Source: Streptomyces sp. SKN60
Lineage (GTDB): Bacteria > Actinomycetota > Actinomycetes > Streptomycetales > Streptomycetaceae
Length of the DNA stretch: 64,000 bases
Reading direction: 5' to 3'
Assembly (NCBI RefSeq): GCF_026236535.1
Contig: NZ_JAHTMW010000002.1
Coordinates: forward strand, 124,001-188,000
The stretch's first letter is position 1. Every line of letters starts with the position of its first letter. The notes under the pieces are model-generated. The model ran no database searches and was not told the origin of the DNA. It saw only the letters and a list, made by a program, of their open reading frames with translations. Shown here piece by piece: positions 41,045-43,078 of this stretch. The position numbers and the translations under genes were made by a program.

Positions 41045-41614
41045 ATGGCGCGTACCAGGAGCGAGGAGCGCAAGGCGGAGATCGTCCGCGCCGCCCTGGA
41101 GGTGATCGCCGAGCGCGGCTACCGGGGCGCCTCCCTGGGCGCGGTCGCCGAGCGGGTCGGGCTCACCCAGCAGGGTCTGCTGCACTACTTCCCCACCAAG
41201 GAGGCGCTGCTCGTCGCCGTCCTGGAGGAGCGCGACCGCTGGGACACCAGCGGCGCCCGGGACCGGGAGCGCTGGCGGCTCGACCTCATGGAGTCGCTGG
41301 TCGAGTACAACGCGATGCGCCCGGGAATCGTGCAGACCTTCTCGGCGCTGCTCGGCGAGAGCGTCACCGAGGACCACCCGGCGCGCGCCTTCTTCACCGA
41401 GCGCTACGCGCAGGTGCGGGAGAACATGGCGGACGTGCTGCGCGCCGAGTTCGGCGACGAACTCCCGGGCGGGCTCACCCCGGAGCGGGCGGCGCCGCTG
41501 CTCACGGCGGTGATGGACGGCCTGCAGTACCAGTGGCTGCTCGACCCGGACGCGGTGGACATGCCGGCCGCCTTCCGGGACTTCGTGCGCCTGCTGCGGC
41601 CGGAGGAGCGCTGA
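41045..41614 (+). CDS. TetR-family transcriptional regulator, 189 aa
   Basis: A repressor with the N-terminal helix-turn-helix RKAEIVRAALEVIAERGYRGASLGAVAERVGLTQQGLLHYFPTKEALLVAVL (residues about 9-58). The C-terminal part resembles the TetR_C_6-like domain of sugar-utilisation repressors (EYNAMRPGIVQTFSALLGESVTEDHPARAFF and DGLQYQWLLDPDAVDM). The start has GGGGGA at about 8 bases. It is divergent from the GH3 glycosidase, its likely target, with the palindrome at 40951. Confidence 0.92.
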   Translation: MARTRSEERKAEIVRAALEVIAERGYRGASLGAVAERVGLTQQGLLHYFPTKEALLVAVLEERDRWDTSGARDRERWRLDLMESLVEYNAMRPGIVQTFSALLGESVTEDHPARAFFTERYAQVRENMADVLRAEFGDELPGGLTPERAAPLLTAVMDGLQYQWLLDPDAVDMPAAFRDFVRLLRPEER

Positions 41615-41641
41615 AACCCCTCCGGGGAGGGGTGGTTCGGG

Positions 41642-41765
41642 TGCGGGGCGACGGGATTCGAACCCGTGCGACTCTCCCGCCAGGTCCGGCGACGAGCCCC
41701 TCGCCCCGGGCTTCGGGGACCTCCTCCGCCCGGGACCGCGATCGACCGCTCTGCCACGGCCCCGC
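41642..41765 (-). tRNA. Atypical tRNA-like gene, 124 nt
   Basis: On the minus strand, acceptor GCGGGGC (41765-41759) pairs fully with GCCCCGC (41649-41643), followed by A. A normal T arm lies at 41667-41651 (ACGGG-TTCGAAT-CCCGT). The 5' part GTGGCAGAGCGGTCGATCGC looks like a serine-type D arm. The centre is not a normal anticodon arm: a CCCGGGC/GCCCGGG hairpin with a 16-nt loop, then a GGCGA/TCGCC hairpin, both enclosed by GGTCC/GGACC. One unpaired C separates T stem from acceptor. Total length exceeds class II tRNAs (about 85-100 nt). No seven-base loop with a recognisable anticodon is seen. It could be a specialised tRNA, a tRNA-derived RNA or a pseudogene. Confidence 0.5.
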
Positions 41766-41860
41766 ACCCTGCGGGGCCGCGCGCGGACCCGCTGCGCCCG
41801 ACCCTAACGCGGGCCGCGGCGGGGCCACATGTGGATTTCGGCGCCGTGCCGGGCGACGCC

Positions 41861-43078
41861 TCAGCGCGGGGCGATGCCGCCCGCGTACACGTGGTCCGGC
41901 GTGATGACCTGGGTGATCGCGCGGGCCAGCAGGGTCGAGGGCTCCTGGCCGCCGACGAGGACGTCGGTGTTCATCATCAGGACCATGGTGGCCTTCTCCT
42001 CGGGCAGGTAGACGGTGACCGTCTCGTAGCCGGGGATGGAGCCGTTGTGGCCGATCCAGCCGTCGGTGTCGAGGATGCCGAGGCCGTAGTCGGTGCCGGG
42101 GAAGCCGGTCGGCAGCGTCTTCAGGCGCTGCGCCTGGGTCTGCGGGCTGAGCAGCTTGCCGGTGGCGAGGACCTCGGCCCAGCGGCGCAGGTCGCCCAGG
42201 TCGGAGATCATGCTGCCGGCCGCCCAGGCCCAGCTGGGGTTCCAGTCGGTGACGTCCTGGACGGTGCCGTCCAGGGTCTGGTCGGTGTAGCCGCGGGCGT
42301 GCGGCGAGGGGAACTCGGTGCCCTTCGGCATGAGGGTGTGCCGCAGCCCGGCGGGCCGGAGCACCCGGTGGTGCAGGACGTCGGCGAGGTTCTGCCCGGT
42401 GACCTTCTCGACGACGAGGCCGAGGAGCAGCAGGTTGGAGTTGGAGTACTGGAACCGGGCGCCGGGGGCGAAGGTGTTGGCGTGCCGGTAGCCGTACGAC
42501 AGCGCCTCCCAGGGGTTGAAGGCGCGCTCGGGCTGCGTCTGCAGGTCGCGGATGAAGTCGGCGTCGGCGGTGTACGGGAAGAGGCCGCTGCGCATCTCGG
42601 CGAGGTGGCGGAGGGTGATCTTGTGCCCGTTCGGCACGCCCCGGACGTAACGGTCGATCGGGTCGTCGAGCCCGATCCTGCCCTCGTCGACGAGTTCGAG
42701 GAGCGCGGTGACCGTGAAGGTCTTGGTCTCGCTGCCGATGCGCACGAACGTGTCGAGGGGCATCGGCGCGCCGGTCTTCTTGTCGGCGACGCCGGTCGCC
42801 TTCACGTAGCAGCCCCGGCCCGGCAGCCACAGGCCGACGACGACGCCGGGGATGCCGGCCTGGGCACGGACCTGGGCGATGGTCTTGTCGAGGCGGGCGC
42901 TGAGCGCGGGGTCGAGGCCGTCGTCGCGCGGGCAGTCGGTGCCGTGCGGTCCCTCGCCGCCGGCGGCGGGGAACGCGGTCGTGGGAGCGGCGGTGGCCGG
43001 CACGGCTGCCATCGGGGCGAGGACGCTCACCGCGAGCAGGGTCGCGGCGAGCAGCCGACGGCGGGGGGTACGTCGCAT
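41861..43078 (-). CDS. Secreted serine hydrolase, D-alanyl-D-alanine carboxypeptidase-like, 405 aa
   Basis: An exported beta-lactamase-fold enzyme of the R61-like class. The signal peptide is RRRLLAATLLAVSVLAPMAAVPATAAP, cleaved near residue 31. Motif 1 is Ser116-Glu-Thr-Lys119 (FVRIGSETKTFTV), motif 2 YSN in RFQYSNSNLLLLG, and motif 3 HNGSIPG in place of KTG. Length and motifs fit the secreted Streptomyces carboxypeptidase/esterase group (family S12). It could trim wall peptides or hydrolyse esters or lactams. The upstream 216 bp (43079-43294) contain no gene that I can support, only GC-rich sequence with several short ACGG-type repeats. Confidence 0.9.
   Translation of the reverse strand: MRRTPRRRLLAATLLAVSVLAPMAAVPATAAPTTAFPAAGGEGPHGTDCPRDDGLDPALSARLDKTIAQVRAQAGIPGVVVGLWLPGRGCYVKATGVADKKTGAPMPLDTFVRIGSETKTFTVTALLELVDEGRIGLDDPIDRYVRGVPNGHKITLRHLAEMRSGLFPYTADADFIRDLQTQPERAFNPWEALSYGYRHANTFAPGARFQYSNSNLLLLGLVVEKVTGQNLADVLHHRVLRPAGLRHTLMPKGTEFPSPHARGYTDQTLDGTVQDVTDWNPSWAWAAGSMISDLGDLRRWAEVLATGKLLSPQTQAQRLKTLPTGFPGTDYGLGILDTDGWIGHNGSIPGYETVTVYLPEEKATMVLMMNTDVLVGGQEPSTLLARAITQVITPDHVYAGGIAPR

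Follow-up and report, generated by a model that had tools for sequence, protein, structure and literature searches.

Between an open reading frame (ORF) for a TetR-type protein and one for a beta-lactamase-like protein, both named from their translations, the minus strand of a 64,000-nt stretch of the Streptomyces sp. SKN60 genome (hereafter the window) carries a tRNA-like unit. The TetR-type ORF is convergent with this RNA and is the next gene downstream. A first-pass annotation of the window had reported a 124-nt gene at positions 41642–41765; the tRNA-like unit is indeed there, but its limits need to be redrawn, as the conserved unit runs from about 41793 to 41639 and includes an additional 5′ hairpin. 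Within the interval originally reported, the T arm can be read directly from the minus strand, and the D arm, an acceptor-like helix and two hairpins are also visible. The lack of a recognizable anticodon arm was correctly noticed as well: the element has no usable anticodon loop and receives no tRNA call. Its parts are listed in Table 1.

Table 1. Parts of the window copy and the two flanking ORFs; percentages and counts of double-change pairs refer to the alignment of 68 sequences or to relatives.
Feature	Position	Strand	Remarks
TetR-type ORF	41045..41614	+	
GC-rich hairpin then TTT, possible terminator	41616..41633	-	seen directly; ends at the TetR stop codon
Closing helix P1, 3′ strand CGCCCCGCACCC	41639..41650	-	one-base deletion, CGG to CG at 41650-41649
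T arm ACGGG-TTCGAAT-CCCGT	41651..41667	-	direct sequence; 99.7% paired in relatives; loop nearly invariant in relatives, partly through selection by the locus-finding pattern
Hairpin 2, variable-arm position	41670..41698	-	outer stem 41698-41694/41674-41670, 86.7% paired; inner stem 41691-41688/41681-41678, 93.2% paired; 9 double-change pairs
Hairpin 2 loop GGACCT, kissing partner	41682..41687	-	loop-loop helix 95.8% paired
Hairpin 1, anticodon-arm position	41704..41735	-	stem 41735-41728/41711-41704; double changes in 10 of 11 pairs
Hairpin 1 loop AGGTCC, kissing partner	41717..41722	-	complementary to GGACCT
D arm	41738..41754	-	stem 41754-41751/41741-41738, 92.6% paired, one A-C mismatch in the window copy; core positions invariant or nearly so
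T8-G9	41756-41755	-	directly before the D arm, which holds the G18G19 equivalents
Closing helix P1, 5′ strand GGGTGCGGGGCCG	41757..41769	-	97.4% paired in relatives, 6 double-change pairs
5′ hairpin P0, GCGGG...GCGCG...CCCGC	41771..41792	-	92.6% of cells paired, 3 double-change pairs
-10-like promoter box TAGGGT	41801..41806	-	14 nt upstream of P0; from a TANNNT scan of 68 loci
Beta-lactamase-like ORF	41861..43078	-	

Standard tools pass the element over. ARAGORN, which the first-pass annotation had proposed as a check, made no tRNA or tmRNA call in the whole window. The sole Rfam 15 match in the 3.5 kb around the element was a chance hit to mir-2366 below threshold, and the element is absent from the 72 tRNAs that the RF00005 model found in the genome of the same strain. 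Single-sequence folding was only weakly better than that of shuffled sequences (z = -1.52), and the case therefore rests on comparison with relatives.

Relatives were collected in several ways. A DNA search of 101 genomes of the genus returned two clear copies and four of the same anatomy with different hairpin sequences; most of its matches below about 60 bits were GC-rich coding noise, and G042, G054, G019 and G098 were accepted as real by their structure. A covariance model built on the end helices only (R1) detected the RNA in 46 genomes of the genus out of 393 sampled; four of these have two copies. A pattern run against 84,980 species yielded 78 loci, in Streptomyces, Kitasatospora, Yinghuangia, Embleya, Actinacidiphila, Pseudonocardia and Saccharothrix; one locus stands under a Microtetraspora title, and its sequence matches a Streptomyces copy. 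Two of the 78, one in a Nocardiopsis tRNA array (L153) and one in Qipengyuania that is ordinarily tRNA-like (L154), were false positives and were dropped. With the full model (R2), several genera of the Streptomycetaceae proved to have strong members, and a class-wide sample gave no strong member outside this family; class-wide matches below about 65 bits were discarded because those examined were tRNA-Ser. A strict pattern, which also misses the window's own type, gave no match in 296 sampled genomes of the phylum. Searches of plasmids with the window copy, of phage records with the window copy and with a B-type copy, and of IMG/VR with the pattern all remained without a match, and the plasmid search with a B-type copy identified four Streptomyces or Embleya plasmids that carry the RNA, unannotated there.

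Some loci depart from the common form. Three loci in one genus of the Streptomycetaceae (L296, L297 and L298; genus g7) belong to a third variant that has neither the 5′ hairpin nor the long closing helix and whose loops, for instance AGGTAC and GGATCT, are not clearly complementary; this variant is possibly a separate branch of the family. Pseudogenes of the family also exist, with intact 3′ halves and disrupted or missing 5′ halves (L108 in G170 and L109 in G070). Two contigs of Streptomyces omiyaensis (L079 and L080) both end at the same base, 11 nt upstream of the RNA, as if the assemblies broke at a repeated upstream region. Near positions 1501–1530 of L006, a perfect tRNA-like minihelix (GTGCGGGGCC-ACGGGTTCGTATCCCGT-GGCCCCGCAC) is followed by TTTT, the other tRNA arms being absent.

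An alignment of 68 sequences (A4), in which 56 pairs were scored against shuffled and slid-structure controls, supports a structure composed of the 5′ hairpin P0, the 13-bp closing helix P1, the D arm, hairpins 1 and 2, the T arm and a helix between the two hairpin loops. Standard pairs fill 93.9% of the paired cells, compared with 37–51% in the slid controls. Double changes affect 34 of the 56 pairs, against 21.0±2.4 in shuffles (0/500), and 293 cells, against 76; no shuffle matched any of these measures. Every helix covaries except the T stem, which hardly varies, and RNAalifold, left to itself, recovered the majority of the nested helices. Half of the loci were located through D- and T-arm motifs, and P1 was part of R1, so that the invariance of these parts is partly selected; this holds for the elbow bases T8, G18G19 and T54T55C56, whose columns are near-invariant partly through the pattern search. 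As structure, P0, both hairpins and the loop-loop helix played no part in assembling the A4 set. The first-pass annotation had argued against neutral decay and had named random divergence of the stems in relatives as an observation that would refute its reading; the pairing and double-change figures above bear its argument out, and on this comparative evidence neutral decay can be regarded as refuted for the family. A structured RNA family almost certainly exists. The feature in the window is real; it is no tRNA in decay and very probably no functional tRNA either.

In the loop-loop helix, double changes are seen in five of the six pairs, and all six pairs are kept in 55 of the 68 sequences. 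When each of the 28 distinct loop combinations is counted once, mean pairing reaches 5.43 of 6, as against 4.99 when the loops are re-dealt (0/20,000). The covarying partners include AGGTCC/GGACCT, AGGCCC/GGGCCT, AGGGCC/GGCCTT, GTGCCT/GGGCAC, AGACTC/GGGTCT and AGGTTC/GAACCT. The complementarity of GGTCC and GGACC had already been noticed in the window copy, where the two were thought to enclose a pair of hairpins; the complementarity stands (AGGTCC/GGACCT), but each segment is the loop of one hairpin. What occupies the anticodon position throughout A4 is a six-base kissing loop rather than a 7-nt anticodon loop. A Shine-Dalgarno-like GAGGAGGT in loop 1 was considered and rejected, as changes in this loop track the partner loop and not the anti-Shine-Dalgarno sequence. 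At the other end of the molecule, the discriminator position is paired with position -1 (CG in 55 of 68 sequences) inside the 13-bp covarying helix, and CCA is not encoded.

The window copy belongs to a type A clade of eleven, eight of which have an examined and shared gene order. Conservation in this clade is 0.89 for P0 and 0.90 for the RNA, compared with about 0.54 for the non-coding flanks, and its limits are sharp. Ten of the eleven read GTCGGCCCC where the window has GTC-GCCCC; the window alone has CGCCCC in the 3′ strand of P1, one G being missing from the CGGCCCC of the ten others. P1 runs through GGGT...ACCC and measures 13 bp in relatives, whereas the window copy forms 10 bp, a 1-nt bulge and 2 bp. 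This private one-base deletion explains two features of the original description, the seven-pair acceptor register and the 'extra C' from which a likeness to selenocysteine-type tRNAs had been argued. The register proves to be off, the inner acceptor of the family being GGGGCCG/CGGCCCC followed by T8-G9, and the selenocysteine argument loses its basis. The kissing loops of the window copy are perfect; given its private deletion, this copy might be losing function.

The family has a candidate expression signal of its own. A TANNNT box lies 13–15 nt upstream of P0 at 50 of the 68 loci, where 0.0005 per position is the background. About 18 nt above the box stands a TTCGYC-like block, and there is also an A-rich stretch. 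Strict scans for sigma-70 promoters and terminators gave no match, hence no consensus -35 element; the possible terminator of the window copy was missed by the strict scan and is not conserved in the window clade. From these upstream motifs, we infer that the RNA is independently transcribed from a promoter-like element.

Type B loci lie between ORFs in unrelated neighbourhoods with almost no common neighbour genes. In a Pfam search, 148 neighbours fell into 142 families, each found in at most four, and no common neighbour gene was found. Inverted repeats flank the RNA on both sides at 14 of 97 loci and on one side at eight, with 36 matches in the expected orientation and four in the other. 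The paired terminal repeats are related to those at transposase genes of the ISL3 family, and such repeats are found by themselves as well as on either side of, or directly beside, ISL3 transposase genes. Similarity between close copies stops at about -119 and +222, leaving about 340 bp in common. Of the 12 non-A copies placed on complete chromosomes, 10 map within the outer 15% at one end or the other (p = 0.0002). Neither of two copies examined for an 8-bp target duplication had a clear one, and in a search for the empty site of the G292 copy the joined flanks matched a repeated element, the flank itself being repetitive. Judged from these sequence features, ISL3-type non-autonomous elements appear to carry some members of the family, but not the window copy. 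Several Streptomyces also have short units with ISL3-type inverted repeats and no RNA gene, e.g. on contig C2 of G319 at 142–142.3 kb (L221), and such units include a tandem array with a spacing of about 150 bp.

A relationship to class II tRNAs had been suspected from the window copy and is upheld by the searches: the next-best matches examined, at 50–65 bits in the class-wide R2 search, are genuine tRNA-Ser genes according to ARAGORN. The core is of tRNA-Ser type, with T8-G9, a D arm, G18G19, a TTCRAAT loop and a long arm at the variable position. The family thus appears, by its sequence kinship, to descend from a serine tRNA and, with two of its arms locked to each other, to have lost the ability to read codons. 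Specialized decoding, one of the roles suggested for the window copy, is improbable, since the loop at the anticodon position pairs with that at the variable position and a covarying helix seals both the 5′ and the 3′ end; the RNA is very probably not a decoding tRNA.

We propose, with a probability of about one half for the explanation as a whole, that a tRNA-Ser-derived gene yields an independently transcribed, non-translating RNA of about 155–175 nt that acts in trans as a tRNA-shaped ligand. As the alignment shows, this RNA keeps the tRNA elbow (T8, the D arm with its GG and the T arm with TTCRAAT); what were once the anticodon and variable arms are now two hairpins, held to each other by a six-bp kissing interaction. 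The 13-bp helix, preceded by the 5′ hairpin, seals its two ends. It could then present the elbow and the acceptor-T helix to a tRNA-binding protein, and so serve as decoy or competitor for a protein that handles tRNAs, for example SerRS, RNase P or an enzyme that targets tRNAs. Action in trans is suggested by the blocked codon reading, the sealed ends and a set of neighbours that changes with nearly every locus; each of the other roles examined (decoding, aminoacyl donation, cis regulation, service as an integration target) is less likely. That the RNA is a trans-acting tRNA mimic, a role reached by exclusion, nevertheless falls somewhat short of an even chance.

Several other explanations have to be weighed. 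The RNA may be a passenger or a working part of ISL3-type non-autonomous elements, serving transposition, copy control or survival, in which case copies that lack repeats would be old or domesticated elements. The flanking repeats and their orientation, the points at which similarity ends, the related repeats at ISL3 transposase genes, the plasmid copies and the position of non-A copies near chromosome ends all agree with this; however, about three quarters of the loci are repeat-free and yet keep the RNA structure, among them the syntenic window clade, Pseudonocardia and Saccharothrix, and we consider the explanation rather unlikely. Far less can be said for a cis-acting leader or attenuator of an adjacent gene, of the T-box kind. 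Although a structured RNA with its own promoter-like element would suit such a role, the next gene downstream in the window is convergent, and downstream neighbours and their orientations vary at almost every locus, which leaves this reading barely credible. A tRNA pseudogene, or the remnant of an attachment site kept through integrase use, is hardly more probable. The one-base deletion in the closing helix of the window copy and an integrase on the same contig, at a distance of about 51 kb, could point that way, but they are opposed by compensatory changes in the helices, including the loop-loop helix, and by the sharp limits of conservation. Moreover, no integrase lies near any locus among the matches listed, no neighbour gene is common to the loci and the window holds no second copy of the T-arm half, and the integration target once suggested for this element finds no support.

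More deserves to be said for a functional seryl-tRNA isoacceptor or aminoacyl donor, whose transcript RNase P and 3′ enzymes would trim to the 7-bp acceptor before CCA is added; SerRS would then charge it, and the product would go to a biosynthetic enzyme or into unusual decoding. A G discriminator and a long arm at the variable position are identity features for SerRS. Both are present, the G in 60 of 68 sequences, so serylation after processing could still take place, and the cross-matches of the model with tRNA-Ser speak for the same possibility. Against it, the part of the helix outside the 7-bp acceptor shows covariation as strong as elsewhere and holds the discriminator position in a pair, the kissing helix occupies the anticodon-position loop, and neighbour genes are not shared among loci. 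Nor are extra copies of SerRS in excess in genomes with the RNA (9/40 carriers versus 5/40 non-carriers, p = 0.38), and the role of aminoacyl donor that had been put forward gains no support from SerRS copy number; we regard this explanation as improbable. A second SerRS gene was seen in the Streptomyces genomes G042, G103, G115, G209, G224, G269, G322, G329 and G387, and also in G003, G024, G033, G040 and G057; its link to the RNA is not significant.

Genes for tRNAs are usually either annotated as working copies or dismissed as pseudogenes. In the non-translating, tRNA-shaped ligand that we favour, a tRNA-Ser has seemingly been rebuilt into a different and strongly selected RNA, with a tertiary contact that can be read from covariation. 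It is tempting to speculate, though tentatively, that it represents a new bacterial RNA class, in which a tRNA-Ser gene has been made into a stable tRNA-shaped decoy with kissing-locked arms; this decoy would be spread by ISL3-type elements and plasmids through Streptomyces and its relatives and kept for its interference with tRNA-handling proteins (such as a toxin aimed at tRNAs, a phage factor or SerRS). As a kind, the tRNA-derived non-decoding RNA is already known; the family would be a new RNA class if its function were shown. A literature search found no description of the family, which is apparently undescribed; subscription papers lay outside the scope of this search, so that one may exist.

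One of the closest published precedents is the Bacillus cereus pseudo-tRNA tRNA-Other, a tRNA-like element without a translation function that has been proposed to act within a larger regulatory RNA (PMC3399842). It is situated beside a genomic island, and the part of its published description used for this comparison, which is one of descriptions only, mentions neither kissing hairpins nor a sealed helix (PMC3399842). With class II tRNA-Ser, the present family shares the D arm, T8-G9, the T arm, the inner 7-bp acceptor and the long extra arm; it differs in having no anticodon loop, a stem of 8–11 bp at the anticodon position, six-base kissing loops, a 13-bp closing helix with a paired discriminator position and a 5′ hairpin, and neither ARAGORN nor RF00005 calls the window copy. 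tRNA-Sec (8/5) likewise has a long extra arm and a longer acceptor branch. In the family, however, the UCA anticodon is absent, the inner 7 bp are followed by T8-G9 in relatives, and the added length is leader-trailer pairing rather than an 8-bp acceptor.

Allo-tRNAs and allo-tRNA(UAU)-like RNAs were reportedly described by Mukai et al. in 2017. Allo-tRNAs also combine serine-type features with an unusual acceptor branch, which in the portion of the source considered is a 12-bp branch of the 8/4 or 9/3 type accompanied by identifiable anticodons, and the allo-tRNA-like RNAs are suspected there of links to transposable elements (PMC7609411). In contrast, the family described here has a 7/5 core with six extra bp, a T stem of 5 bp and a locked anticodon position. 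By way of analogy only, eukaryotic tRNA-derived SINEs are also RNA genes of tRNA origin whose movement is tied to short non-autonomous elements. The present family differs from them in its DNA-type inverted repeats of the ISL3 kind, its low copy number and its strongly selected RNA structure.
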